Part shown: piece after piece, positions 10,456-57,682 of the stretch | Layout: each line of letters begins with the position of its first letter | Position numbering within the stretch: position 1 is the first letter of the stretch | Assembly: GCF_000328765.2 (NCBI RefSeq) | Contig: NC_019954.2 | Coordinates: 1,554,501-1,618,500, forward strand | DNA length: 64,000 nt | Reading direction: 5' to 3' | Origin: Tepidanaerobacter acetatoxydans Re1 | GTDB lineage: Bacteria > Bacillota > Thermosediminibacteria > Thermosediminibacterales > Tepidanaerobacteraceae | The notes under the pieces: generated by a model | Database searches by the model: none | Told to the model about the DNA's origin: nothing | The model's input: only the letters and a program-made list of their open reading frames with translations | Translations under genes and position numbers: made by a program

Positions 10456-11553
10456 TTAAAATAGGATTTTCTGCCGGCGCATTCCAACATTGATTACAAG
10501 TCCGGCGGCAATCATATTCATTAAAAAAGAACTTCCTCCATAGCTCATAAATGGCAGCGGTATACCGGTTACCGGCATTATACCCATGTTCATGCCAATG
10601 TTGATTAAGATCTGAAATGCCCACATTGAAACTACGCCTACAACTATATAAGTTCCTAAAAGATCTCGAGCCTTAAATGCTACCCTTAACGAATAGTAAA
10701 GCAGTATAAAATATAATATGAAAAGCGTTATACCACCTATAAAACCTAACTCTTCACCTAAAACGGCAAAAATAAAATCCGTATGTTTTACCGGAAGAAA
10801 ATTCAGTTGATTCTGGGTTCCCTGATAAAGGCCCTTCCCAAATAACTTGCCTGAACCAATTGCAATTTTAGATTGTATAACATGGTATCCTTTTCCCAAG
10901 GGATCTAGATATGGATTTATAAAAACTAAAATTCGGTCTTTTTGGTAAGGTTTTAAAAACAACCAAACTATAGGTAAGGAAAAAATGCCTGCTGTCATAA
11001 TACCGGCCAAAAGTTTATAGCTAAGGCCCGCGATAAACAGCATGCCTAGAACCATTGCCAATAGAACCAATGATGTCCCTAAATCCGGCTGTTTCGCTAT
11101 AAGCAGCATTACGGGTATCATATGCAGTCCTACTGACAATAAATCTTGCAAGCTGCTTAAAGACTTCTTTTTTTCAAGATGCTTCGCCAGAGTAATTATA
11201 ACGGCTAATTTGGCAAATTCCGAAGGTTGCAATCTAAAAGAGCCAATATCAAGCCATCGCTGAGCTCCTCCGCCTTCTTCCCCAATAAATAATACAAAAA
11301 TTAATAGTAGAAAATTAATAATATATATAATATTAGCCCAATTAGCGAAAGAATGATAATCTATTGAAATGACAAATACCATAGCTGCTAATCCGATGCC
11401 AAACCAAATAAGCTGCTTACGAGCTGTACTGAAACTACCTCCGGAGCTCATGGCATGCGTTGCACTGCTTATCATTAAAACACTTATTATGGTTAGTAAA
11501 ATAATGGCAATTAAAATAGGATACTCTATATTTTTTAACAATTTTCGATCCAT
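10456..11553 (-). CDS. rodA: RodA, SEDS-family peptidoglycan polymerase
   Basis: RodA polymerises glycan strands of lateral wall with the class B PBP2. The 365-residue protein has about ten membrane helices. It carries the SEDS signatures GGGAQRWLDIG and RLQPSEFAKL near residue 100, the long loop around KDRILVFINPYLDPLGKGYHV, and the C-terminal GIPLPFMSYGGSS with the family's conserved motif. AGGGGGCC lies upstream of the ATG. It follows the FtsA-like gene in the same direction, within the mre-min-rod series, which favours RodA over FtsW or SpoVE. Confidence 0.92.
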   Translation of the reverse strand: MDRKLLKNIEYPILIAIILLTIISVLMISSATHAMSSGGSFSTARKQLIWFGIGLAAMVFVISIDYHSFANWANIIYIINFLLLIFVLFIGEEGGGAQRWLDIGSFRLQPSEFAKLAVIITLAKHLEKKKSLSSLQDLLSVGLHMIPVMLLIAKQPDLGTSLVLLAMVLGMLFIAGLSYKLLAGIMTAGIFSLPIVWLFLKPYQKDRILVFINPYLDPLGKGYHVIQSKIAIGSGKLFGKGLYQGTQNQLNFLPVKHTDFIFAVLGEELGFIGGITLFILYFILLYYSLRVAFKARDLLGTYIVVGVVSMWAFQILINIGMNMGIMPVTGIPLPFMSYGGSSFLMNMIAAGLVINVGMRRQKILF

Positions 11554-11624: not shown

Positions 11625-13394
11625 TCATCTTGTTAAGTTTTCCCAATAAATTTCTATTTCATCATTATGTTTTATTGGATCGGCAAAGCCGGCATCAATG
11701 CCGTTTATTTTCATAACCAGCTTACCTGCCATACCTTCGGGCTTAAATGATATAATACTAAAAACATCACTTAAAATCATATCTCTCGGTTCTATGGTTA
11801 TTAAGGCGTCATCGGGTATTTCCTCTTCAGGCGACATTGTACGCCCGGAAACTTTTATAACAGGATCTATGATAAAATTGCGTCCGTTTATTTTTAGAGA
11901 AATTTTGTCTTCTTCAGATATATACTCCTTTATCTTAGAAGACCCTGCCTTTCCGTCCTTCGCAGCTAGAAAGCTTATAACCGCACCATCTTTAATCGGT
12001 TCGTTTAAATCAACATTTTTGCCATTCATTGTAACAATAGCAGGCTTTGCCATCTCACCTTTTACTATTTTAAGCTTTCCATTTAGTTTAAAAGTCTTGG
12101 CAAGCCCCGGTCGCCCAAAAATTTCTGCAGATGATTTCCCTGCATAAAGTAATGCATTCAAAACCGTAGGATTGTCTTGTGCTAAAATATTTATTGGCTT
12201 TTCATTTATATACACCTTGTAGGAGGACAAGTGAGCGCCTTTGAGTGAGTTTATGGCTATACCTATAGGAGTTACTGAAAAAGGGCCTGTAAAATCTTCG
12301 CAGCCCTGTATATCAGTTAACCCTTCACGACCTTTGACTCCAACCCGTTCTTTAGGTATTTCTAGGTGCGCAGCTAAAGACTCCGGTAAACCCGGCATAA
12401 GGCTGCCACCGCCGATCATTAAAACAGCAGCAGGTGTTTTACCATTGAGTTCTAATATTTTCCGTGCTATCTTGGTCGAAAGTTCGTTTATGATTGGACC
12501 TATGGTTTCTGTTATTTTTTTAGTGCGAAATTCCTCTGTATTCCCAAGAATATCCATAAATTTCACAGTTTCATGTAAAGACAACTCACGTTTTACTCTT
12601 TCGCCCTCATCAAAGTTTAATAAAAACTCTTCACAGATTTTTTCCGTAATTTCATCACCGGCCATAGGAACCATTCCATAAGCAAATATACTGCCATCAC
12701 GAGATATAGCAATATCTGACGTTCCTGCACCTATATCTACCAGTGCAATATTAAGTTTACGCATACCGGGAAGAACCACAATATCACCTGCAGCAATAGG
12801 CTCTAAAGTTAAGCTTTCAAGACCTAAATCGCATCTGTTAAGAACCGTAAGTAAGCTTTCAACAACAGTACGAGGAAGAAAAGTAGCTACAATCTTAACC
12901 GATATGCTACTGCCCTTTTGGCCCAGTAAATTTTCTAAAGATTCATCCTCTAAAAACCATTTGATAGGACTAAAACCCACACAGTAATAATTGTCAAAAT
13001 CTCCTTGTTTATTTTTTTCGGCTAAAGATTTAATCGCTTTTGACAGAGCTTCTGTTTCTAAACTTCGAATATCTTCTTCGGTTACTTCCATAAAAGGAGA
13101 AATCTTTCTTTCAGTTTCGGCTTCAACCGTATAAAGCGCTCTGCCCGCTGCAGCAACTGCGGCTTTCTCTAATTTTTTATTAAGTTTTTTTTCAATATCT
13201 TCCTTAATCGACCTTACGCTTTTGGCTACAGCTTCAATGTCATGGATTTGGCCATCATACATAACACGGCTTTCATGTTCAAGAACTTTATGTGCAAGGA
13301 TTTTATAAGTTTTGCCTTGCTTGCTTACAACCAAACCTGCTACAGTTCTGGTGCCGATGTCCAAAGCGAAAACTTCCTGTCCGACTTTATTCAA
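11625..13394 (-). CDS. FtsA-like actin-fold ATPase with an extra C-terminal region
   Basis: The 589-residue protein has actin-superfamily motifs: phosphate-1 ALDIGTRTVAG (about 10-20), phosphate-2 LVDIGAGTSDIA (218-229) and the adenosine motif MIGGGSLMPGL (326-336). The central part resembles FtsA/PilM. About 190 residues beyond the core (from about 395) contain beta-rich, repeat-like segments such as KVYINEKPINIL, ITMNGKN-like and FKLNGKLKIV, suggesting small domains of a beta-grasp kind. No amphipathic FtsA membrane tail was recognised. The start is a TTG at 13392-13394 with AAGGAGG seven bases upstream. It lies 13 bases after minE and before rodA, so a role in wall elongation or septum placement is likely, but the exact function is unknown. 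Confidence 0.85.
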   Translation of the reverse strand: MNKVGQEVFALDIGTRTVAGLVVSKQGKTYKILAHKVLEHESRVMYDGQIHDIEAVAKSVRSIKEDIEKKLNKKLEKAAVAAAGRALYTVEAETERKISPFMEVTEEDIRSLETEALSKAIKSLAEKNKQGDFDNYYCVGFSPIKWFLEDESLENLLGQKGSSISVKIVATFLPRTVVESLLTVLNRCDLGLESLTLEPIAAGDIVVLPGMRKLNIALVDIGAGTSDIAISRDGSIFAYGMVPMAGDEITEKICEEFLLNFDEGERVKRELSLHETVKFMDILGNTEEFRTKKITETIGPIINELSTKIARKILELNGKTPAAVLMIGGGSLMPGLPESLAAHLEIPKERVGVKGREGLTDIQGCEDFTGPFSVTPIGIAINSLKGAHLSSYKVYINEKPINILAQDNPTVLNALLYAGKSSAEIFGRPGLAKTFKLNGKLKIVKGEMAKPAIVTMNGKNVDLNEPIKDGAVISFLAAKDGKAGSSKIKEYISEEDKISLKINGRNFIIDPVIKVSGRTMSPEEEIPDDALITIEPRDMILSDVFSIISFKPEGMAGKLVMKINGIDAGFADPIKHNDEIEIYWENLTR

Positions 13395-13407: not shown

Positions 13408-13689
13408 TTAAATCTTGGCCAAGTGCTTCACTTTCTTTATAGGAATATTTGCTACTAATGCCGGAACTGTTACATCTTCATCTTTTTCCATACGAGTTAA
13501 TTTTACCTCGAGACCACTTTCATCAATTTCCATATAATCTGAAATCATATCTATAAGTTGGCTCTTTATCATCTCAAGAAATTTCGGTGATACATTAGCA
13601 CGATCGTGCACAAGGATTAACCTTAATCGTTCTTTGGCTATATCCTTACTCGAAACATCCTCTCTGCCGAAAATTTTTAAAAAATCCAC
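13408..13689 (-). CDS. minE: MinE, topological specificity factor of the Min system
   Basis: MinE displaces MinC from MinD and stimulates MinD ATPase, keeping division at mid-cell. The 93-residue protein has the N-terminal membrane/anti-MinCD part (MDFLKIFG, then KERLRLILVHDRANVSP) and the C-terminal specificity domain (ISDYMEIDESGLEVKL). Length is normal. It follows minD by 18 bases, so minC-minD-minE forms one unit here. Its presence implies an oscillating Min system rather than the DivIVA-only arrangement of Bacillus. Confidence 0.95.
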   Translation of the reverse strand: MDFLKIFGREDVSSKDIAKERLRLILVHDRANVSPKFLEMIKSQLIDMISDYMEIDESGLEVKLTRMEKDEDVTVPALVANIPIKKVKHLAKI

Positions 13690-13707: not shown

Positions 13708-14520
13708 TTATTTTGCCCGAGCTTTTAACCCGAAAAACACACGTAATTTATCCATAAAGTTGGGCTCTACGTTTTCTATTTTCATCAAAGGGATTTCCTC
13801 ACCCTCTAAACGTCGAATCATATTTCTGTAGGCTTGGCCTGCTTTTGATGATTCATCAACAACTGCCGGTTCACCTCTGTTGGTAGATATTACAATTTTC
13901 TCATCTTCCGGTATAACTCCAAGTAGCTCAATAGCCAAAACATCTATCATATCATCAATATCCATCATATCTCCGCGTTTTACCATATCCGGCCTTAGTC
14001 TATTAATGATTAGTTTAGGCTCTTCAAAGCCGGCAGCCTCTAAAAGGCCTACTATTCTATCAGCATCTCTTACGGCAGAAACTTCAGGCGTAGTGACAAT
14101 GAGTGCTCTATCGGCTCCGGCGATGGCATTCTTAAATCCCTGTTCTATACCTGCGGGGCAGTCGATTAATATATAGTCGTAATCGCGTTTTAACTCTTCA
14201 CATAATTTTTTCATCTGAGTCGGCGTTATAGCTGTCTTATCTTTGGTTTGAGCTGCCGGCATAAGATATAGGTTTTCAAAGCGCTTATCCTTTATAAGTG
14301 CTTGCTTCAAACGGCACATACCGTTTGCTACATCTACAAGGTCGTAAACTATACGGTTTTCCAGGCCCATTACCACGTCAAGATTTCTTAAACCTATATC
14401 GGCATCTAACATTACTACCTTTTTTTGCTTGTATAAAGCAAGACCGGTTCCAATATTTGCAGTTGTTGTGGTTTTTCCCACTCCGCCTTTGCCGGATGTG
14501 ATTACTATTACTTCGCCCAT
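13708..14520 (-). CDS. minD: MinD, septum-site determining ATPase
   Basis: This deviant Walker ATPase dimerises on membranes with ATP and recruits MinC. The 270-residue protein has the deviant Walker A GKGGVGKTTTTANIG at residues 10-24, the switch motif LDADIGLRNLD, and Walker B DYILIDCPAGIE. A C-terminal amphipathic membrane-targeting helix (FMDKLRVFFGLK) is present. It sits between minC and minE. No unusual feature was seen. Confidence 0.97.
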   Translation of the reverse strand: MGEVIVITSGKGGVGKTTTTANIGTGLALYKQKKVVMLDADIGLRNLDVVMGLENRIVYDLVDVANGMCRLKQALIKDKRFENLYLMPAAQTKDKTAITPTQMKKLCEELKRDYDYILIDCPAGIEQGFKNAIAGADRALIVTTPEVSAVRDADRIVGLLEAAGFEEPKLIINRLRPDMVKRGDMMDIDDMIDVLAIELLGVIPEDEKIVISTNRGEPAVVDESSKAGQAYRNMIRRLEGEEIPLMKIENVEPNFMDKLRVFFGLKARAK

Positions 14521-14559
14521 ATTATCCCTCCTGTTTGCTTTTGTAATTATCTTGGGGCA

Positions 14560-15159
14560 TTATAAGGGTTCTATTACTATTACATTATCTTTTAAGCGTG
14601 CTATTTCCGGAAACGATGGTAGATTTTCCTTCTCTTCCGGAGGTCTTGAAATAACTTCAGCAATTCTTAATTGAGTCGGTTTTAAGGCAAATGCAGCTAC
14701 TATAGCAGTAGTATCTCCCTGTGCCCCAGCATGAGCCATCCCGCGAAGAGTCCCCATAACCAGAATATCGCCGGCGGCAACTATCTCACTGCCTGGATTG
14801 GCATCGCCCAAGATGACTATAGTTCCCTTATAAGTAATTTTTTGCCCCGATCGCACAGTTTTTTTAAGCAGTAATACTCTATTCCTGTTTGGTTTTGGAA
14901 ATATCAGGGTTTTCGGAGAACTTGCCTCCTGCAAGCTCATCCCAAAATCTGTAAAGATATGCTGTAACTTATCATATTCATCTTTACTTAAAAAGCCGTT
15001 TTTAATTTTTATACTAACCTTGCCTCCTGAAAAAAAGTTCCGACTACGTTGAAGTTTCTCGTAAATAGCTTTTTTCACATCTTCAAAGCTCGAAATTTCA
15101 TCGAGTATGATAGTTATACCTTCCTTTGTACCTTTAATTATTACAGACTCGTTCGTCAT
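14560..15159 (-). CDS. minC: MinC, FtsZ polymerisation inhibitor
   Basis: MinC blocks Z-ring formation away from mid-cell. The N-terminal domain (about 1-95) is followed by the C-terminal right-handed beta-helix, with the family's GDANPGSEIVAAGDILVMGT and LRGMAHAGA. I chose the ATG at 15157-15159 because GGAGGGAG lies directly upstream, giving about 199 residues; five further in-frame codons precede it. It begins the minCDE unit, separated from the PBP2 gene by a terminator-like hairpin. Confidence 0.93.
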   Translation of the reverse strand: MTNESVIIKGTKEGITIILDEISSFEDVKKAIYEKLQRSRNFFSGGKVSIKIKNGFLSKDEYDKLQHIFTDFGMSLQEASSPKTLIFPKPNRNRVLLLKKTVRSGQKITYKGTIVILGDANPGSEIVAAGDILVMGTLRGMAHAGAQGDTTAIVAAFALKPTQLRIAEVISRPPEEKENLPSFPEIARLKDNVIVIEPL

Positions 15160-15235
15160 ACTAACTCCCTCCAAGCAGCACCACTACAAAGTATTTTATT
15201 CTTCATAAATCAAGTAAATCCTTCTTTTGATGATA

Positions 15236-15267
15236 AAAAAACCAGAATCTGTAAAGATTCCGGTTAA
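15236..15267 (-). terminator. Intrinsic terminator between the PBP2 gene and minC
   Basis: AACCGGAATCT and AGATTCTGGTT form the stem, followed on the minus strand by TTTTTTT. It overlaps the last codons of the PBP2 gene. It implies that minC has at least some independent transcription. Confidence 0.7.
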
Positions 15268-17336
15268 GGTTGAACAAGATAATCTTCGCTGTTATCGTTT
15301 TCATTGGTTAGATGAAAATATTCTTCAAAAATAGCTCTTGCAACAGGTCCTCCCGTAGTTCCACCTGAACCGGCTTGCTCTATAAACACTGCTACTGCAA
15401 TTTCCGGATCCTCATAAGGAGCAAATGCCACAAACCATCCATGCGGGTCTTTACTCACATCCCACTCGGCGGTTCCGGTTTTCCCCGCTACAGAAATTGG
15501 AAAATCCGCAAAAACTCCGTAGGCTGTACCACCAGACAATGTAGCACCTTTCATACCATTTTTTATTATTTCATATGTCTTGTCGGAAATATCTAGTCTG
15601 CCACCAATTTCCGGGTTTTTTTCAAGAACAACATTACCATCAGCATCAACTATTGACTTTATTAAATGAGGCTTCATCCATATTCCTTCATTTGCAATAG
15701 CTGCAATATAATCTGCAATTTGTATCGGTGTAAAACTATGATAACCTTGCCCTATGGCTGCATCTAGTGTTTCGGCAGGATACCATATTTTATCTTGGGA
15801 ACTGCTAAAAGTATTCTTCTTATATTCACGGCTTGCTACAGTTCCAGCTTTCTCATTGGGCAACTCGATTCCTGTAATGTCTCCAAGCCCATACATTTTT
15901 GCATATTTTTCAATATTATCTATGCCCAATCGACGCCCCATTTCATAAAAATAAATATTGCACGATTCAGCAATGGCCTTTTCAATGTTTACTAAGCCAT
16001 GGCCTCCTGCTTTCCAACACTTTTTCGGCAAAATAGTCCAATAAACCCCGGTATCTCTAATAAGCTCACGCTCGTTAGTTACTTTTTCTTCTAGTGCAGC
16101 AGTTGCTGTAACCATCTTAAAAATTGACCCCGGCGGAAACGTCCCGCTAATGGCAAGATTGACCATCGGATTGAGCGGATTTTTTGATATTTCCTCCCAT
16201 TCTTTTTGAGTTATCCCACGGGCAAACATATTCGGATCGAAATCCGGGACACTTGCCATCGCCAAGACTTCACCGGTTTTTATGTTAATAGCAACTACAG
16301 CACCTCTTTTTGCATTGGGAAAAGGCTTGTACTTATCAGTCTGTAATTTTATTAATTGCTCTCTTAACTTATTTTCAGCAATTTGCTGAAGTTTTATATC
16401 TAGTGTTAGATTTATCGAATTGCCGGGAATCGGCTCCTTTTGACCTAATACTTTTATAAGCTTTCCGGAAGCAGTAACCTCCACCTGCTGGCCGCCGTCA
16501 GTACCTTTTAAATAAGATTCTAATACCTTTTCCAATCCCATTTTACCTATAAGGTCTCCCGGACGATACCCGTTATCCTTTGCAGTATCTAGCTCTTCTT
16601 GACTTATTTCTCCCACATAACCAAAAACATGCGAGCCCATGCTCCCATAAATATAATTTCGCAAAGGTTCTACCTCTATAACAACGCCGGGAAGACGACG
16701 TTCTTCAATTTCTGCTACTGTCTGAAAATCCACATCAGTCTTAAGTCTAACCGGTTTATAATCTTGACTTTGCAGCTTATTCTTTAACGTATCATAATTA
16801 TATGAAACCATTACCTGTGTATTCGGCGGCTGGTTAATCGTAACAGTGCCTGTAGCAAAATCTACTTTACTTGGCAAAACCTGCTTGCCTGTACTGCTAT
16901 CTGTAATAGATATATCAGCAATATCGACTTCGCCGTTCCCATTCCTATCGGCTATCGGCAATTTACTCAAAATAATTTTTTTATCCTTGTCTACAGTATA
17001 GGTTTGATTTGAGATTTCTGTATAATGAGGAATTTCTAGGATGTTTCTGAGAATTTCGAACACTTCTTCCTGTTCAGACTCTTCCGTTTTTACGCTCATA
17101 TATGACACTGTAAAACTAGGTCGGTTATTAACTAATTCTCTACCATATCGATCCTTAAAAACTCCCCTTGGTGCTGTTATAGGAATAAGCCTTATCCTGT
17201 TCTCCTCCGCAAGTTTTTCATATTCATTTCCTTTGACTATTTGCAGAGTTAATAAGCTTATTGTTAATACAACAAAAATTAAAACTACAATCCCTAATAG
17301 GACATTCAATCGTTTTTGGAGTTTTTTTACATCCAT
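15264..17336 (-). CDS. mrdA: Penicillin-binding protein 2, class B transpeptidase of the elongasome
   Basis: This membrane-anchored D,D-transpeptidase crosslinks wall made by RodA. The 690-residue protein has an N-terminal membrane helix (residues 13-33), the PBP dimerisation (pedestal) domain, and a transpeptidase domain. The domain has SxxK at S404-K407 (PGSIFKM), the SxN motif AESCN, and KTG in VAGKTGTAEW. Oddly, the pedestal carries an insertion at about residues 115-182 with an EF-hand/dockerin-like loop DRNGNGEVDIAD (130-141) and a beta-rich segment. It follows mreBCD by 18 bases and precedes a terminator. Confidence 0.93.
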   Translation of the reverse strand: MDVKKLQKRLNVLLGIVVLIFVVLTISLLTLQIVKGNEYEKLAEENRIRLIPITAPRGVFKDRYGRELVNNRPSFTVSYMSVKTEESEQEEVFEILRNILEIPHYTEISNQTYTVDKDKKIILSKLPIADRNGNGEVDIADISITDSSTGKQVLPSKVDFATGTVTINQPPNTQVMVSYNYDTLKNKLQSQDYKPVRLKTDVDFQTVAEIEERRLPGVVIEVEPLRNYIYGSMGSHVFGYVGEISQEELDTAKDNGYRPGDLIGKMGLEKVLESYLKGTDGGQQVEVTASGKLIKVLGQKEPIPGNSINLTLDIKLQQIAENKLREQLIKLQTDKYKPFPNAKRGAVVAINIKTGEVLAMASVPDFDPNMFARGITQKEWEEISKNPLNPMVNLAISGTFPPGSIFKMVTATAALEEKVTNERELIRDTGVYWTILPKKCWKAGGHGLVNIEKAIAESCNIYFYEMGRRLGIDNIEKYAKMYGLGDITGIELPNEKAGTVASREYKKNTFSSSQDKIWYPAETLDAAIGQGYHSFTPIQIADYIAAIANEGIWMKPHLIKSIVDADGNVVLEKNPEIGGRLDISDKTYEIIKNGMKGATLSGGTAYGVFADFPISVAGKTGTAEWDVSKDPHGWFVAFAPYEDPEIAVAVFIEQAGSGGTTGGPVARAIFEEYFHLTNENDNSEDYLVQP

Positions 17337-17354
17337 ACAAATCCCTCAAGGCTA

Positions 17355-17858
17355 TTAATATTTTATATCGAAATAATAATCAAAGAATCGTTCCATCCTA
17401 TAAGTTCCAATATAAATCAAAGGTGATACAAACATGTTTATTAATGACGATGCTACCGTGATAGGCAAAAAATTTCGCCACGGATGAATGAGCTCGCCTG
17501 TCAAAAAAGCAATTGTCATAAAAACAAAATTAAATATCACAGAGCCGGTGAATACAAGTACCATAGTAATAACGACTCTACCCTTGTAAAGATTTCGCGA
17601 ACCAAGCCCAACAACATATCCTGCAATAGACTTTGCTATAGTATTAAGACCTAAAAATCTTCCAAAGAGAATATCATCTAAAAAACCGTTCATTAATCCC
17701 GTCAGTGCTCCCGCTTTTTCATTCTTGACCATCGCCATACACAAAGCAAAAACCAGCGGCAGGTCTGGTTTCACTCCGAAAATTCCAATAAAATTTGAAA
17801 GGGTTGTCTGAACCAATACGAGAACACCTAATACTAAAACATATACAATAGTCCTCAT
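17355..17858 (-). CDS. mreD: MreD, rod-shape determining membrane protein
   Basis: MreD is a small integral membrane partner of MreC in the elongation complex. The 167-residue protein is predicted to have five or six helices and contains the family pattern NFIGIFGVKPDLPLVF and LTGLMNGFLDDILFGRFLG. It overlaps mreC by four bases and precedes the PBP2 gene by 18 bases, the normal mreB-mreC-mreD-mrdA order. Confidence 0.9.
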   Translation of the reverse strand: MRTIVYVLVLGVLVLVQTTLSNFIGIFGVKPDLPLVFALCMAMVKNEKAGALTGLMNGFLDDILFGRFLGLNTIAKSIAGYVVGLGSRNLYKGRVVITMVLVFTGSVIFNFVFMTIAFLTGELIHPWRNFLPITVASSLINMFVSPLIYIGTYRMERFFDYYFDIKY

Positions 17859-18706
17859 TGATCGGCCTCCTTTTCACCCTTAATCACAAAAACTCGCTCA
17901 AGTTTGAGAAAATCTACAGCGGGTTTAACTATAGCATATTGCATTAATTCATAAGATTCTTTTTCGGTTTCCACAACTTCCCCTATAACAATACCCTTAG
18001 GCACCAAACCTCCCAAGCCCGAAGAAATAACTATATCTCCCTTTACTAAGTTGGCATCCTGAGATAAAAAGTCCATTTTTAGGTAACCCCTAGGTGCTGT
18101 ATCAATGCTTCCTTTAATGATTCCGTTATCTCTGGTCCTTTGTAGCATTGCACTAACAGAACTACGCTCATCGGTAATTAACATTACCTTGGATGTATTG
18201 GCAGTAGTGCTTATTATACTGCCAACCAGACCTTCATTGGTAATAACAGCCATATCTTTTTTTAAGCCTTGTTTCTCACCCTTATCAATTAAAATAACAT
18301 TAAACCAATTACCCGTATCTCTTGCTATAACTTCCGCTGCCTCAAGATCATATTGCAGATTTTTATCTTTCAATCCTAAAAGATTGCGCAAATCTGTGTT
18401 TTCTCGCTGATATTCCAAAAGATTTTGCTTATACTGTAAAAGTTCTGCCACCTGTTGTTTTAGAGCCTCATTCTCTTCTTTAAGATAAAAAATCTGTGGT
18501 ATGGTATTCAACTTGTCTTTTATATCGAAACCTATTTTTGACAAGATTTTTTGTGCAGGACTTAAGGCAGTTATCACCGGAATTTCAAAATTTTTAAAGA
18601 CAGTTTCTCTATTCGATGTTATATCCACAATCATTATTGAGATAATTAAAAGCAAAACCAGAATTAACCATTTTCGGTTTTTTAAAAGGCGCTGCAATAA
18701 CACCAC
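17855..18706 (-). CDS. mreC: MreC, rod-shape determining scaffold
   Basis: MreC is a bitopic protein that links MreB filaments to PBP2. The 283-residue protein has an N-terminal membrane helix (about 13-30), a coiled coil (about 65-105, LKEENEALKQQVAELL), and the periplasm-type beta domain with DKGEKQGLKKDMAVI, NEGLVGSI and GLGGLVPKGIVIG. It lies five bases after mreB and overlaps mreD by four. Confidence 0.95.
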   Translation of the reverse strand: MVLLQRLLKNRKWLILVLLLIISIMIVDITSNRETVFKNFEIPVITALSPAQKILSKIGFDIKDKLNTIPQIFYLKEENEALKQQVAELLQYKQNLLEYQRENTDLRNLLGLKDKNLQYDLEAAEVIARDTGNWFNVILIDKGEKQGLKKDMAVITNEGLVGSIISTTANTSKVMLITDERSSVSAMLQRTRDNGIIKGSIDTAPRGYLKMDFLSQDANLVKGDIVISSGLGGLVPKGIVIGEVVETEKESYELMQYAIVKPAVDFLKLERVFVIKGEKEADQ

Positions 18707-18711
18707 AACCT

Positions 18712-19743
18712 TCAGCCTACTTTTTTAGGTGAAATTAATACACGCTTTAAAATATCTAATTCCTCTAAAACCTTACCTGTTCCCATTGCTACACAATTCA
18801 TTGGCTCTTCAGCAATATGCACCGGCATTCCTGTTTCACTGTTTACTCTACTATCTAAACCCGTTAGCAGCGAACCTCCACCGGTCATAACGATACCTCT
18901 GTCCATAATATCGGCCGCTAACTCCGGCGGCGTCTTCTCGAGTGTTACCTTAATCGCATCTACAATATTATTTACCGGTTCTGCCAGAGCACTGTTAATC
19001 TCTTCGGCGGTTACAGAAATAGTCTTCGGTAAACCGGTAACCAAATCACGACCCCGTATATCCATAGATTCGATATCTATATCTAGTGCTGCAGAACCAA
19101 TCGTAATCTTTATTTGTTCTGCAGTACGCTCGCCGATCATAAGGTTATATTCTTTCTTGATATAATAGACAATGGCTTCATCCATCTCATCGCCGCCAAC
19201 ACGAATTGATTTGCTGGTAACAATACCCCCCAGTGAAATAATCGCAACTTCGGTAGTACCGCCTCCTATATCCACCACCATATTTCCAGCCGGTTCATAA
19301 ACTTCAAGACCTGCTCCTATAGCTGCTGCCATTGGTTCTTCAATTAAATAGGCCTCTCTTGCTCCTGCCTGAAGAGTAGCATCGATTACCGCTCTTTTTT
19401 CAACTTCAGTCACTCCCGAAGGAACTCCCACAACAACTCTGGGTTTAATAAAATGTTTGCTCTTTAACGCCCTTGATATAAAGTACTTTAGCATGTTTTC
19501 AGTCACGTCAAAATCAGCTATGACACCATCTCTCATAGGTCTTATTGCCACTATGTTGCCCGGAGTACGCCCTATCATCAGCTTGGCTTCTTCGCCAACA
19601 GCTAAAATAGATCCATTATCTCGCTGAACCGCAACAACAGAAGGTTCTTTAAGAACAATACCCTTTCCTTTAACATGCACCAAAGTATTAGCCGAACCTA
19701 AATCAATTCCTAAGTCATTTGAAAATATATTAAAAAATCTCAT
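18712..19743 (-). CDS. mreB: MreB, bacterial actin
   Basis: MreB forms membrane-bound antiparallel filaments that guide lateral wall synthesis. The 343-residue protein has the phosphate-1 motif [16 protein letters not shown], the connecting segment [14 protein letters not shown], the phosphate-2 motif [15 protein letters not shown], and the C-terminal [12 protein letters not shown]. The amphipathic N-terminus [12 protein letters not shown] suits membrane contact. It starts the mreBCD-mrdA unit, with radC and maf upstream in the same direction. Confidence 0.97.
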
Positions 19744-25064: not shown

Positions 25065-25948
25065 GATGGAAAACAACTCAACAAAACTAATAAAAATACT
25101 AAATCGCATACCCGATATACGCCAGCAAAGTAAATTACTACATTCACTGATTGACATCATATTTATAGCCATAGTAGCAACCGCTTAAGGTGCAGACGAT
25201 TGGGAATGCATGCAAATATTTGCCGAAGACCATATAGAGTGGTTTAAAAAATATATACCATTAACCAATGGCGTACCTTCCCATGATACAATTGAGCGGG
25301 TATTCAAACAAATAAACTCCAAAATATTCATGAAGTGCTTCATGGAATGGACACAGCTAATAGCAAACATAATAAACAAAGGCGATTATGTGCTAGCCTT
25401 AAAAGGTAACCACCCATTACTTCATAAAGAAATCGAAGAATTTTCCAAGGAAGCTGAAGACAAAAAATATCAAAAGAAATATGGTATAAATACATATCAA
25501 AATTATGATAAAGGTCATGGCCGTATAGAACGAAGAACTTACTACATCGCATCCAATATTTGCTGGCTGGATGCAAGAAAAGAATGGAAGAAACTCACCT
25601 CCATAGGTATGGTCAAATATTACAGCGAACAAAACGGTAAAAAAACATGTGAAACAAGATATTACCTATGTAACATAGAACCTGATGCCACAAAATTTGC
25701 AAATGCAGAAAAAACATTGGGGCATAGAAAGTATGCACTGGTCCTTAGATGTTACATTCAACGAAGATTCAACAAGAGTAAGAAAAGACAATGCACCTGA
25801 AAACCTTTCAGTGTTACATAAATTTGCAGTAAACATTCTCAAACTGGAAAAGTCAAAAAAGAGAAGAAGCTTGAAGGCTAAACGTTTTAAAGCATCAGGG
25901 AGTTTAAGTTACCTTGAAAAAGTATTATCTTGTATAAGTGCTGATTAA
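25065..25948 (+). pseudogene. ISAs1-family transposase, multiply broken
   Basis: Reading starts at ATG 25065 (MENNSTKLIKILNRIPD...). It hits an in-frame TAA at 25186-25188 just before GADDWECMQIFAED and continues through NGVPSHDTIERVF and FMEWTQLIANI. There it jumps directly to INKGDYVLALKGNHPLL. In intact ISAs1 transposases about 80 residues with the IDGK and IDAMG catalytic aspartates lie between these blocks, so an internal in-frame deletion is inferred. A frameshift near 25725 moves the tail (HWGIESMHWSLDVTF...ENLSVLHKFAVNIL) to another frame. The element cannot transpose. Confidence 0.85.
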
Positions 25949-32678: not shown

Positions 32679-34170
32679 ACTAAAACTTCGCACTTGTAAA
32701 AGTGCCTATAAACCTTGAAAAATCAACATTATTCGGCATAAATATAGCATGAACCTACCATTTTTGGTATAATTAAGTTGACAAACCAACAAACCAAAAT
32801 GATAAGATGGTTTCGTCATCTATAAAAAGTTTTTTCAAAGAATATAGGATTTCGAACGCATTGAAAGAATCTAATGCCTACAAAAGCAAAGGCATTTCTG
32901 TAATAGCCATTTTCCGATACCTGTTTATGCTGATTTTGGAAAAGATACGGTTTACAGATTTATAAATTCTATCAATATAAACTGGATTAGGTTTACCACT
33001 TTGCTTAGTACGCAAATTGCATCCGAAACCCTTACCAAGCTCACAGATGAAAAGCGAGTGAATGTTCTAATACTGGACGATACACTATTTGAACGAGCAG
33101 GTGCTAAGAAAGTAGAATTATTAGCCAAAGCATTCGATCATGTAAAGAGAACATACAAGTATGGCTTTAGACTTCTTACATTAGGGTGGTCGGATGAAAA
33201 TACTTTTCTCCCGGTTAATGGTTGCCTGTTGTCTACCGAAAACAAGAAAAATCGTATTAACGAGGCTGCTATCGTTGATAAGCGGACTGCTGGCTATACT
33301 CGGCGTAACTTAGCCCAGACAAAGGCAACTACTGTCGCCCTTGAATTGATAAAAGCTGCTAAAATGGCTATGATTCCTGCATCCCATGTACTGTTTGATA
33401 CTTGGTTCTGTTCACCATCTTCTTTGATTTCCATCAAGGAAATGGGTTATGATATCATTGCAATGGCAAAGAAAACACCAAAAATCCATTATCTCTATGA
33501 TGGAAAAATGCAACCACTAACAGAGATATACAAGAAAAACAAAAAGCGTAGAGGTAGATCTAGGTATCTTCTTTCCGTTGAAGTCACTATTAAAAAGGAT
33601 GACTACTCAATCCCTGCTCGGATTGTATATGTCCGCAATAGAAATAAGCGTAAGGATTATCTAGCGATTATCACAACCGATATGAACATCAGTGAGGATG
33701 AAGTTATCCGTATATGTAGGAAGCGCTGGGATATCGAGGTATTTTTTAAAGTATGCAAATCGTATTTAAAGCTAGGCAAGGGGTGTAACTCCTTATCTTA
33801 CGATGCAATGACAGCGCATGTGGCTATCGTATTTACTAGGTATATGCTACTGGCTGTAGAGAATCGTCAACAATCTGACCTGCGAACATTGTAGAACTAT
33901 TTTACTATATATCGGATGAGATGTCCGATATTACATGGATTCAGGCTTTTCACTTACTGATGCAGGTGTTCGTGGATACAGTTACGGATAAGTTATTCTT
34001 AACTTCTGAACAGTTAGATCAACTGATGGAAACATTTATGGCTGCGCTCCCAAAAGAACTAAAGAAAAGGCTACAATTATGCGCATAAGGCCAAAAATCG
34101 GGATACTGTTTTAATCCCAAATATTGAATTCTCAAGGTACATAGACAATATTTATGTGCGAAGTTTAAGT
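32679..34170 (+). mobile_element. Second IS4-type insertion sequence copy (inactive), opposite orientation
   Basis: ACTAAAACTTCGCAC at the left end and the complement of ACTTAAACTTCGCAC at 34156-34170 are near-perfect inverted repeats. A further CCTTGA block inside each end also matches. ATTTA occurs immediately outside both ends and may be part of a target duplication. It separates the permease gene from the Tdh-like gene. Confidence 0.8.
32807..34088 (+). pseudogene. IS4-type DDE transposase with two frameshifts
   Basis: It starts MVSSSIKSFFKEYRISNALK and stops in frame before FGKDTVYRFINSI, which is in another frame (shift near 32935). The main frame (32965-33893) carries LILDDTLFERAGAKKVE, HVLFDTWFCSP and KRWDIEVFFKVCKSYL, which contain the DDE residues. 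A second shift near 33890 puts ELFYYISDEMSDITW through KELKKRLQLCA in another frame. It is related to the broken transposase at 29735-31021. Confidence 0.85.
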
Positions 34171-54309: not shown

Positions 54310-55932
54310 TTGTCACTAAATTCATTCTTTACATTATTAGGGGGTTTGGGCCTTTTCATATATGGCATGCGACTTATGGGTGATGGGCTTGAAATGGCTG
54401 CCGGCGAACGATTGAAAGGTTTACTGGAGCTTCTTACTCGAAACCGCTTATTAGGAGTTTTGGTAGGTACTCTGGTTACTGCAATAATTCAAAGCAGCAG
54501 TGCCACTACTGTTATGGTAGTTGGTTTGGTAAATGCAGGGATTATGGATTTTTCTCAAGCCATAGGCATTATAATGGGTGCTAATATAGGTACTACAATG
54601 ACGGCTCAACTCATCGCATTTAAACTGACTAATCTTGCTCTACCTGCCATAGGCATTGGAACTGGAATATTCCTTTTCGGCAGGAATAAGAGTCAAAAAT
54701 ATCTTGGACAAGTTATATTAGGATTTGGACTTTTATTTTTTGGCATGCAGACCATGGAAATAGCCTTAAAACCTCTTGCTCAAATACCGGAGTTTACTAA
54801 ATTCATAGCAAGCTTTAGTAAAAACCCGTTTCTAGGAGTTTTAGCAGGGTTTTTAACCACAGGCATAGTCCAAAGCAGTAGTGCTACTATAGGTATTCTG
54901 CAAGCATTAGCCGGTCAGGGTATTGTTAATATATCTTCAGCATTGCCTATTTTATTTGGAGATAATATTGGGACATGTGTTACAGCCTTGCTTTCCAGCA
55001 TCGGCACCAATATTACGGCTCGGCGGACTGCCCTATTTCATCTTATCTTTAATATAGTCGGAACCATAATCTTCATGCTGCTTTTGCCTCTGGTTCAAAC
55101 GGCTGTAGCTTTAACTTCCCCTGATCCGGTAAGGCAAATTGCAAATGCCCATACTATTTTTAATGTGGCAAACACCATTATTCAACTTCCTTTTGCCTTT
55201 TTGATTATGAAGCTTGTCATTCATCTTGTTCCGGGGGAACCGGAAATAATAGAACGAGGTTTGAAATACATTGATGACAGACTGCTTGAAACACCTTCTA
55301 TTGCTTTAGCTCAAGTTAAGAAAGAAATTGCAAGAATGGGTAACCTAGCCTTAGAAACTTTAAGAGATTCTATAAATACATTTCTTTATTACGACGAACA
55401 AAAAAATAAAATTGCAAAAGAAAAAGAAACTGTTATCAATGATTTAGCCAGAGAAATCACGCGTTATCTCGCCTTACTTTCACGCACATCATTACCTGAT
55501 GATGAACATGTTTCTATAACCGACTTAGTAAGCACAGTAAATGACATGGAGCGTGTTGGAGACCATGCCATGAATATACTGGAACTTGCTGAGTTTCGCA
55601 ATGAACATCGATTGCCTTTTAGCAATGAAGCCATTCAGGAATTAGTTGAAATGTCTTCCAAGGTCACGGAAACCTTCGATCTGGCAGTTTATACATTTTT
55701 GCATTGGGATAAGCCCTCGGCTCAAAAAATTGTGAAAAACGAAGAAGAAATTGATAATATGGAAAACAAATTGCGTCTTAACCATATAAAACGACTTAGT
55801 GGCGGATTATGCGATCCTAGTTCAGGCGTTATATTCCTTGATCTTTTAACCAACCTTGAGCGTGTAGGGGATCACTCTTTTAATATTGCATCATACGTTT
55901 TGAAAATAGATAAGAACTACAAAAGACTGTAA
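54310..55932 (+). CDS. Na/Pi cotransporter family protein with C-terminal PhoU-like domain (copy 1)
   Basis: The 540-residue protein has about eight or nine membrane helices in two inverted repeats, each with a QSSSAT motif (IIQSSSATTVMVVG and IVQSSSATIGILQA). These are the substrate/sodium-binding signatures of the PNaS (NptA) family. From about residue 340 a PhoU-like helical domain follows (NDMERVGDHAMNILELAEF, LTNLERVGDHSFNIAS). The family imports phosphate or acts in phosphate homeostasis. The start is a TTG with GGGGAGG upstream. A tandem paralogue follows. Confidence 0.92.
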   Translation: MSLNSFFTLLGGLGLFIYGMRLMGDGLEMAAGERLKGLLELLTRNRLLGVLVGTLVTAIIQSSSATTVMVVGLVNAGIMDFSQAIGIIMGANIGTTMTAQLIAFKLTNLALPAIGIGTGIFLFGRNKSQKYLGQVILGFGLLFFGMQTMEIALKPLAQIPEFTKFIASFSKNPFLGVLAGFLTTGIVQSSSATIGILQALAGQGIVNISSALPILFGDNIGTCVTALLSSIGTNITARRTALFHLIFNIVGTIIFMLLLPLVQTAVALTSPDPVRQIANAHTIFNVANTIIQLPFAFLIMKLVIHLVPGEPEIIERGLKYIDDRLLETPSIALAQVKKEIARMGNLALETLRDSINTFLYYDEQKNKIAKEKETVINDLAREITRYLALLSRTSLPDDEHVSITDLVSTVNDMERVGDHAMNILELAEFRNEHRLPFSNEAIQELVEMSSKVTETFDLAVYTFLHWDKPSAQKIVKNEEEIDNMENKLRLNHIKRLSGGLCDPSSGVIFLDLLTNLERVGDHSFNIASYVLKIDKNYKRL

Positions 55933-56056
55933 AAACAATAAATAAAATCATATTAGTAGCTTTTTTTGGGTGTAAATAACAGGCACAGTAAAACCATAAA
56001 GTTTTTAATGCTATTAAATCGATTCATCTTTTTAGTTTAGAAGGGGGGGTTATCTG

Positions 56057-57682
56057 TTGTCTTGGAATTCATTTTTTACAATGTTTGGCGGTTTGGGACT
56101 TTTTATATATGGCATGAGATTGATGGGTGAGGGTTTAGAAAGAGCTGCCGGCGACCAACTTAAAAACTTGGTAGAAATTTTAACGACAAATCGACTAATG
56201 GGCGTTTTTGTAGGTGCCTTGGTTACCGCTATAATTCAAAGCAGTGGTGCTACTACTGTCATCGTAGTAGGTCTGCTCAATGCAGGAATTATGGATCTTT
56301 CCCAAGCAGTCGGTGTTATCATGGGTGCAAATATCGGAACTACTATGACAGCTCAACTCATCGCCTTTAAACTTTCCAGTATTGCTTTACCGGCAATTGG
56401 TATCGGAACCGGGGTATTTTTATTTAGTAAAAATAAGACTCGCAAATTTATAGGACAAGTTATATTAGGATTTGGCCTTTTATTTTTCGGCATGCAGACC
56501 ATGGAAACAGCCTTCAAACCTCTTGCTGAACTACCACAGTTCATTGGCTTTATGACAAATTTTAGTAAAACACCGATTCTGGGTGTATTGGCAGGTTTTA
56601 TGCTCACCGGTCTTATCCAAAGCAGCAGTGCAACCATTGGCGTACTCCAAGCACTGGCCAGTCAAGGTCTGGTAAATTTATCAATAGCACTGCCAATTTT
56701 ATTCGGAGATAATATTGGTTCATGTGTCACTGCACTGCTGTCAAGCATCGGAACCAATATAAATGCTAGGCGAGCCGCCTTATTCCATCTTTTATTCAAT
56801 ATTATCGGAACGATAATTTTTTTGCTAATACTTCCGCTAGTTCAGATGACTGTTGTCTTAACTTCTTCTGACCCCGTGAGGCAAATCGCCAATGCTCATA
56901 CTTTTTTCAATGTAGTAAATACTGTCATTCAATTTCCTTTTGCATTTTTGCTTGTAAAGCTAATCACTTATATTATTCCGGGAGAACCTGAAGTCATTGA
57001 GCGAGGTTTAAAATACATTGACGACAGGCTACTTGAAACACCTTCTCTTGCTTTAGTCCAAGTAAAAAAAGAAATTGCCAGAATGGGCAGTTTAGCTTTA
57101 GAAACTCTTAAAGATTCAATAGATACATTTCTCAAATATGATGAGAAAAAAGATAAACTTGCCAGGGAAAAAGAAACAGTTGTTAATGAGCTTGCTCGAG
57201 CGACTACCCGTTATTTAGCCTTGCTTTCACGAACCTCTTTACCACTTGATGAATATAACTCTATAACATATTTAATAAGCGCGGTAAATGATATGGAACG
57301 TGTAGGAGATCATGCTATGAACATCTTAGAATTAGCGGAGTTCCGAAATGAACACAGGTTGCCATTCAGTCAAGATGCTATTAATGAGTTACTTGAAATA
57401 GCCGTAAAGGTTCAAGAAACATTTGATTTGGCTATTTATTCTTTTTTGCATTGGGATGAAGAATCTGCTAAAAAAATTCTTGCAAATGAAGAAGAAATCG
57501 ACAGCATGGAAAAAATACTGCGCAACAATCATATAAAAAGGCTTAACGAGGGAACATGCAATCCAAGCTCAGGTGTTATTTTCCTTGATATGTTAAGCAA
57601 TTTTGAACGTGTGGGAGATCACTCATTTAACATAGCTACATATGTTTTAGACATCGATAAAAACTATAAAAAACTATCTTAA
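56057..57682 (+). CDS. Na/Pi cotransporter family protein with PhoU-like domain (copy 2)
   Basis: The 541-residue protein is a close paralogue of the preceding gene along its whole length, with membrane helices, the second-repeat QSSSATIGVLQAL, and the C-terminal PhoU-like domain (NDMERVGDHAMNILELAEF). In the first repeat, however, the motif reads IIQSSGATTVIVVG, with glycine in place of serine. The TTG start follows GGGGGGG. The two genes seem to arise from a recent tandem duplication with divergence of one binding motif. Confidence 0.92.
   Translation: MSWNSFFTMFGGLGLFIYGMRLMGEGLERAAGDQLKNLVEILTTNRLMGVFVGALVTAIIQSSGATTVIVVGLLNAGIMDLSQAVGVIMGANIGTTMTAQLIAFKLSSIALPAIGIGTGVFLFSKNKTRKFIGQVILGFGLLFFGMQTMETAFKPLAELPQFIGFMTNFSKTPILGVLAGFMLTGLIQSSSATIGVLQALASQGLVNLSIALPILFGDNIGSCVTALLSSIGTNINARRAALFHLLFNIIGTIIFLLILPLVQMTVVLTSSDPVRQIANAHTFFNVVNTVIQFPFAFLLVKLITYIIPGEPEVIERGLKYIDDRLLETPSLALVQVKKEIARMGSLALETLKDSIDTFLKYDEKKDKLAREKETVVNELARATTRYLALLSRTSLPLDEYNSITYLISAVNDMERVGDHAMNILELAEFRNEHRLPFSQDAINELLEIAVKVQETFDLAIYSFLHWDEESAKKILANEEEIDSMEKILRNNHIKRLNEGTCNPSSGVIFLDMLSNFERVGDHSFNIATYVLDIDKNYKKLS

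Follow-up and report, generated by a model that had tools for sequence, protein, structure and literature searches.

Uncharacterised FtsA-type ATPases of Clostridia-like Bacillota carry tandem beta-grasp domains in place of a membrane helix

On the minus strand of the window, i.e. the 64,000-nucleotide stretch of the Tepidanaerobacter acetatoxydans Re1 genome that was analysed, lies a gene (11625..13394) for an FtsA-like ATPase of 589 aa, in which an FtsA-fold head (residues 1-385) is followed by a tandem beta-grasp tail (residues 386-589). The gene begins at a TTG, 7 nt in front of which stands a strong ribosome-binding site (AAAGGAGG), and Ka/Ks values of 0.06-0.10 in head and tail alike point to strong purifying selection; thus, it can be taken as a real gene. 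The genome is a single contig of 2.76 Mb from the Tepidanaerobacter group, and the closest named match of the protein, with 95% identity, was found in Tepidanaerobacter sp. EBM-38. As had been noticed in the sequence-only reading, the gene sits between minE (13408..13689, minus strand; profile match), 13 bp upstream, and rodA (10456..11553, minus strand; TIGR02210 over its cut-off), 71 bp downstream. The minus-strand order is mreB, mreC, mreD, PBP2, minC, minD, minE, the ATPase gene, rodA, M23, M50 and a gene for a B12-binding radical SAM protein, the row from mreB to minD covering 13708..19743 and mreB being assigned by a PF14450 match and alignment with MreB; the M23 and M50 proteins are presumably, by position, SpoIVFA and SpoIVFB. 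A promoter scan gave fewer matches than shuffled sequence, and therefore no transcript boundary was inferred. Elsewhere in the window two adjacent genes for Na/Pi-cotransporter and PhoU fusions (54310-57682; 540 and 541 aa) are perhaps a tandem duplication, and two transposase pieces, a DDE_Tnp_1-associated fragment (25210-25800) and a DDE_5 transposase (33001-33894), lie where the GC skew is weak.

The structure predicted for the head (12240..13394, minus strand) is a high-confidence FtsA fold (pLDDT 89.5) that includes the 1C-type insertion, and its best solved match in Foldseek was FtsA 7q6i_B (E 1.8e-30, TM 0.84 on the target), followed by PilM and EutJ, with MreB far lower (TM 0.60 on the target). 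The ATP motifs (D12-G14-T15, D220-G222-G224-T225, G328-G329) were invariant in the 77 aligned members of the family, bearing out the earlier proposal of an FtsA-like ATPase with intact actin-fold motifs. The Pfam FtsA profile PF14450 matched the head at 7e-15 with 55.9 bits against a cut-off of 31.8, which together with the FtsA/PilM fold places the protein in the FtsA/PilM actin superfamily. MreB belongs to the actin superfamily as well, and in this lineage its gene stands in the same row, but it is a much weaker structural match than FtsA, and MreB has a 1B subdomain instead of 1C. A second, Mbl-like MreB paralogue of 345 aa is encoded in the same genome (L004, 1417-2454), adjoining genes for a SpoIIID-like regulator and a flagellar-rod-type protein. 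Residues that are invariant across the family cluster at positions 41-53, 76-90 and 171-202, which by alignment would border the entry to and the exit from the 1C subdomain, and three motifs, R-x-MYDGQIHD, AAAGR-x-L-x-T and TFLP, are invariant and specific to the family.

The C-terminal part, estimated at about 190 residues in the sequence-only reading and described there as repeat-like beta segments, was found to be 204 residues long, and while its beta character stood, it is more exactly described, by profiles and structure comparison, as two ubiquitin-like beta-grasp domains. Predicted alone, the tail reached a mean pLDDT of 90. It matched the TGS profile in 66 of the 77 members and ThiS in 63, and tandem ubiquitins were Foldseek's best matches for it. 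The first domain (residues 386-482; 11949..12239, minus strand), which is TGS/ThiS/MoaD-like, superposes on the TGS domain 3hvz_A (Z 8.2, with an rmsd of 1.9 over 62 residues). The second (about residues 499-589, or tail residues 115-204; 11628..11900, minus strand), closing with a conserved strand of the GD-x-I-x-I-x-W type, superposes on MoaD 2q5w_D (Z 6.6). Such Z values are modest taken alone, but because the profile matches add to them, the first domain is firmly assigned as a beta-grasp domain and the second is likely to be one. Across the family the tail is between 195 and 344 residues long, which is consistent with additional beta-grasp units in the sequences of other orders. Unlike ThiS, MoaD and TGS proteins, the ATPase joins its tandem beta-grasp domains to an actin-fold head, and a C-terminal Gly-Gly was present in none of the 77 aligned members, so that sulfur carriage by the tail was rejected. 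A RodZ_C match in three of the 77 tails was put down to chance. In the literature on the beta-grasp fold that was searched FtsA was not mentioned. Since beta-grasp domains have many functions, any role given to the tail is a guess.

Could the protein simply be the FtsA of this organism? A canonical FtsA of 405 aa, ending in LLERVKRILREYF and scoring 368 on TIGR01174, the FtsA equivalog, is encoded at C1:1197248-1198342 and holds the place beside ftsZ in the division cluster, which rules out the 589-aa ATPase as the only FtsA; the latter scored 110.8 bits on the same model, below the cut-off of 175.85. In a maximum-likelihood tree 30 family proteins split from 30 canonical FtsAs with support of 100/99, and although the root is unsure owing to the long PilM and MreB branches, the family forms, by sequence, one clade apart from canonical FtsA. 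The additional FtsA-type protein that had been suspected from the letters alone thus outlived both of the objections foreseen for it, as a canonical FtsA and a separate PilM each exist in the genome. Where it had been called a second actin-like protein beside MreB, "additional" holds and "second" does not, the protein being one of at least five (MreB, the Mbl-like MreB, FtsA, PilM and the 589-aa ATPase).

The next question is whether, alongside FtsA and SepF, it might bind FtsZ and modulate the Z ring as a second FtsA. FtsA is its closest match among named families by fold and by sequence, sharing the 1C-type subdomain and the ATP motifs, and in 12 of the 45 carrier genomes tested no other FtsA-type protein was found (31 had an FtsA over the family cut-off and two, G042 and G086, a divergent candidate). 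However, R299 and E302 of the 2B region (numbered as in the canonical FtsA of this genome), which lie in the FtsZ-binding subdomain, do not vary in any of the 30 FtsAs and are taken by us to be the FtsZ contact, with R299 presumably corresponding to the E. coli FtsA arginine needed for FtsZ binding; they vary in the family, where the commonest residue reaches only 27% and 23%. A literature search for the published FtsA mutant gave no match. Binding of FtsZ is, on this residue comparison, probably absent. The C-terminal amphipathic helix, judged by sequence and model, was present in all 30 FtsAs and in none of the 77 aligned family members, the 589-aa ATPase itself terminating on a beta strand, so that the absence of a membrane-targeting tail was correctly read. 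The helix was also absent in 13 further proteins from genomes picked for missing FtsA or for their family, among which carriers that have no FtsA; one more locus fetched for this check (L172) held no frame with the motif used. Furthermore, SepF is available as an alternative anchor in all 14 tested genomes with a missing or divergent FtsA, and replacement of FtsA by the family protein where it is missing was accordingly rejected. A function as an FtsZ-binding second FtsA is, on this evidence, quite improbable, and the job of the ATPase probably differs from that of FtsA.

The family gene was present in 167 of the 299 species sampled from the phylum, nearly always as one copy. FtsA was found in six of 13 tested genomes without the gene, and neither FtsA nor the family protein requires the other. 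In the family f34 (L169, L170, L171) the protein reaches 849-866 aa, extended by a long stretch at the N-terminus and by one of low complexity at the C-terminus; SpoIVA is missing from these genomes, as is FtsA from the two that were tested for it. Literature searches gave no description of the family, and no model in Pfam or NCBIfam matches the 589-aa ATPase as a whole. The family is a large clade of FtsA-type actin-fold ATPases in Clostridia-like Bacillota, as yet uncharacterised, with tandem beta-grasp domains in place of the helix.

A second known system to be weighed is the type IV pilus, in which the ATPase would be a PilM. The PilM_2 profile was matched over its cut-off (47 bits), PilM is likewise without a membrane helix, and besides the superfamily the two may have in common docking at the cleft between subdomains 1A and 1C. 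Nevertheless, a distinct PilM of 338 residues is encoded in the same genome in a pilB-pilC-pilin-pilM-pilN-pilO locus (the pilN- and pilO-like neighbours recognised by eye), a context that the 589-aa ATPase gene does not have; the latter's TIGR01175 score of 67.1 bits is far below the PilM cut-off of 133, no pilus genes were seen near family relatives at the loci examined, and PilM (TIGR01175/PF11104) has no beta-grasp tail. The separate locus and the low score contradict this reading, and we give it next to no credence.

From its position between minE and rodA the protein had been proposed to act in wall growth or in positioning the septum, that is, as an elongation- or Min-linked cytoskeletal protein acting with MinE, RodA and MreB. 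Within its own class the arrangement is stable. In all 11 named loci the gene directly upstream is minE, and RodA follows directly downstream in the nine where it could be recognised, a contig end cutting off the remaining two. The minE-gene-rodA arrangement was seen in its own order as well as in three more families from this class. In the Syntrophomonadaceae, where the order is csaB-gene-ctsR-mcsA-mcsB-clpC-like, an mreB paralogue lies a few genes away. Yet the minE-gene-rodA order was not seen in the other orders examined; in Tissierella/Alkaliphilus-type genomes the row is DUF503-nth-gene-vanW-DUF2225, and in others the gene adjoins pfkA-/lgt-like or tsaE/tsaB/rimI-like genes. Moreover, in two genomes of a sister family (G013 and G014) the gene is missing while the mreBCD-PBP2-minCDE-rodA row is otherwise intact and colinear, minE being followed directly by rodA after gaps of 114 and 66 bp (L162 8959-9074; L163 8317-8384), a natural empty site; with the row intact without it, the gene is dispensable there. 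Nor does the presence of MreC track the gene, as MreC occurs in all 58 genomes tested, carriers and non-carriers alike, and hence does not discriminate. The place of the gene in the mre-min-rodA row is therefore a lineage-specific arrangement, and since this place is class-specific and G013 and G014 keep the row without the gene, what the position says about function is weakened: that the protein is dedicated to wall growth or to placing the septum is at best faintly suggested, and joint action with MinE, RodA and MreB is in our judgement doubtful. A VanW/G5 protein was the most frequent downstream neighbour of the family gene; a functional link to it was rejected, as VanW is also found in non-carriers, including G013 and G014. 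At three loci (L113, L114, L115) a protein of about 1155 aa that starts like the PHP domain of DNA polymerase III alpha is encoded a few genes past the family gene.

Sporulation was considered too, with the ATPase acting at a stage such as asymmetric division or engulfment. SpoIVA was found in 154 of 167 carriers and in 96 of 132 non-carriers (odds ratio 4.4, Fisher p 7e-6, a statistic that ignores phylogeny), the neighbours here include the probable spoIVFA and spoIVFB, and in the Syntrophomonadaceae spoIID-like and spoIIID-like genes were identified by eye nearby. But 13 carriers are without SpoIVA, family f34 contributing four of these and f86 three, and G013 and G014 have SpoIVA and not the gene, which makes a sporulation-stage protein improbable.

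The reading that we prefer, with a probability of roughly 0.4, is that the ATPase is cytosolic and serves, as PilM does, for docking or as a scaffold, the tandem beta-grasp domains replacing the membrane helix, and that it is not an FtsZ tether. PilM-like behaviour is proposed because the membrane helix is absent and FtsZ binding is probably absent. In both PilM-PilN and FtsA-FtsN a peptide is known to dock between the IA and IC subdomains (PMC7613929). Like PilM, the 589-aa ATPase would be soluble and ATP-dependent, and would reach the membrane through a membrane protein whose short cytoplasmic tail is bound in the 1A-1C cleft, near which, judging by sequence, the motifs R-x-MYDGQIHD, AAAGR-x-L-x-T and TFLP would lie. 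The beta-grasp tail might then recruit cytosolic partners as a protein-binding platform. In this lineage the partner might come from the elongation machinery or the Min system; no partner was identified. Superfamily ATPases such as EutJ and DnaK are not scaffolds, and this counts against a scaffold reading. A bolder proposal, which we consider unlikely, is a further actin-type filament system of Clostridia that is distinct from FtsA, MreB and PilM, polymerises on ATP, and uses the tandem ubiquitin-like tails as a recruitment platform that positions envelope enzymes.

Over half of the species sampled from the phylum carry this family of ATPases, which has so far gone without a description in the literature that we could find. 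Because two close relatives naturally lack the gene while their mre-min-rodA row is intact, its role can be tested directly, by comparison and by deletion, and if the protein were indeed a cytoskeletal scaffold, Clostridia would gain one additional actin-type system.
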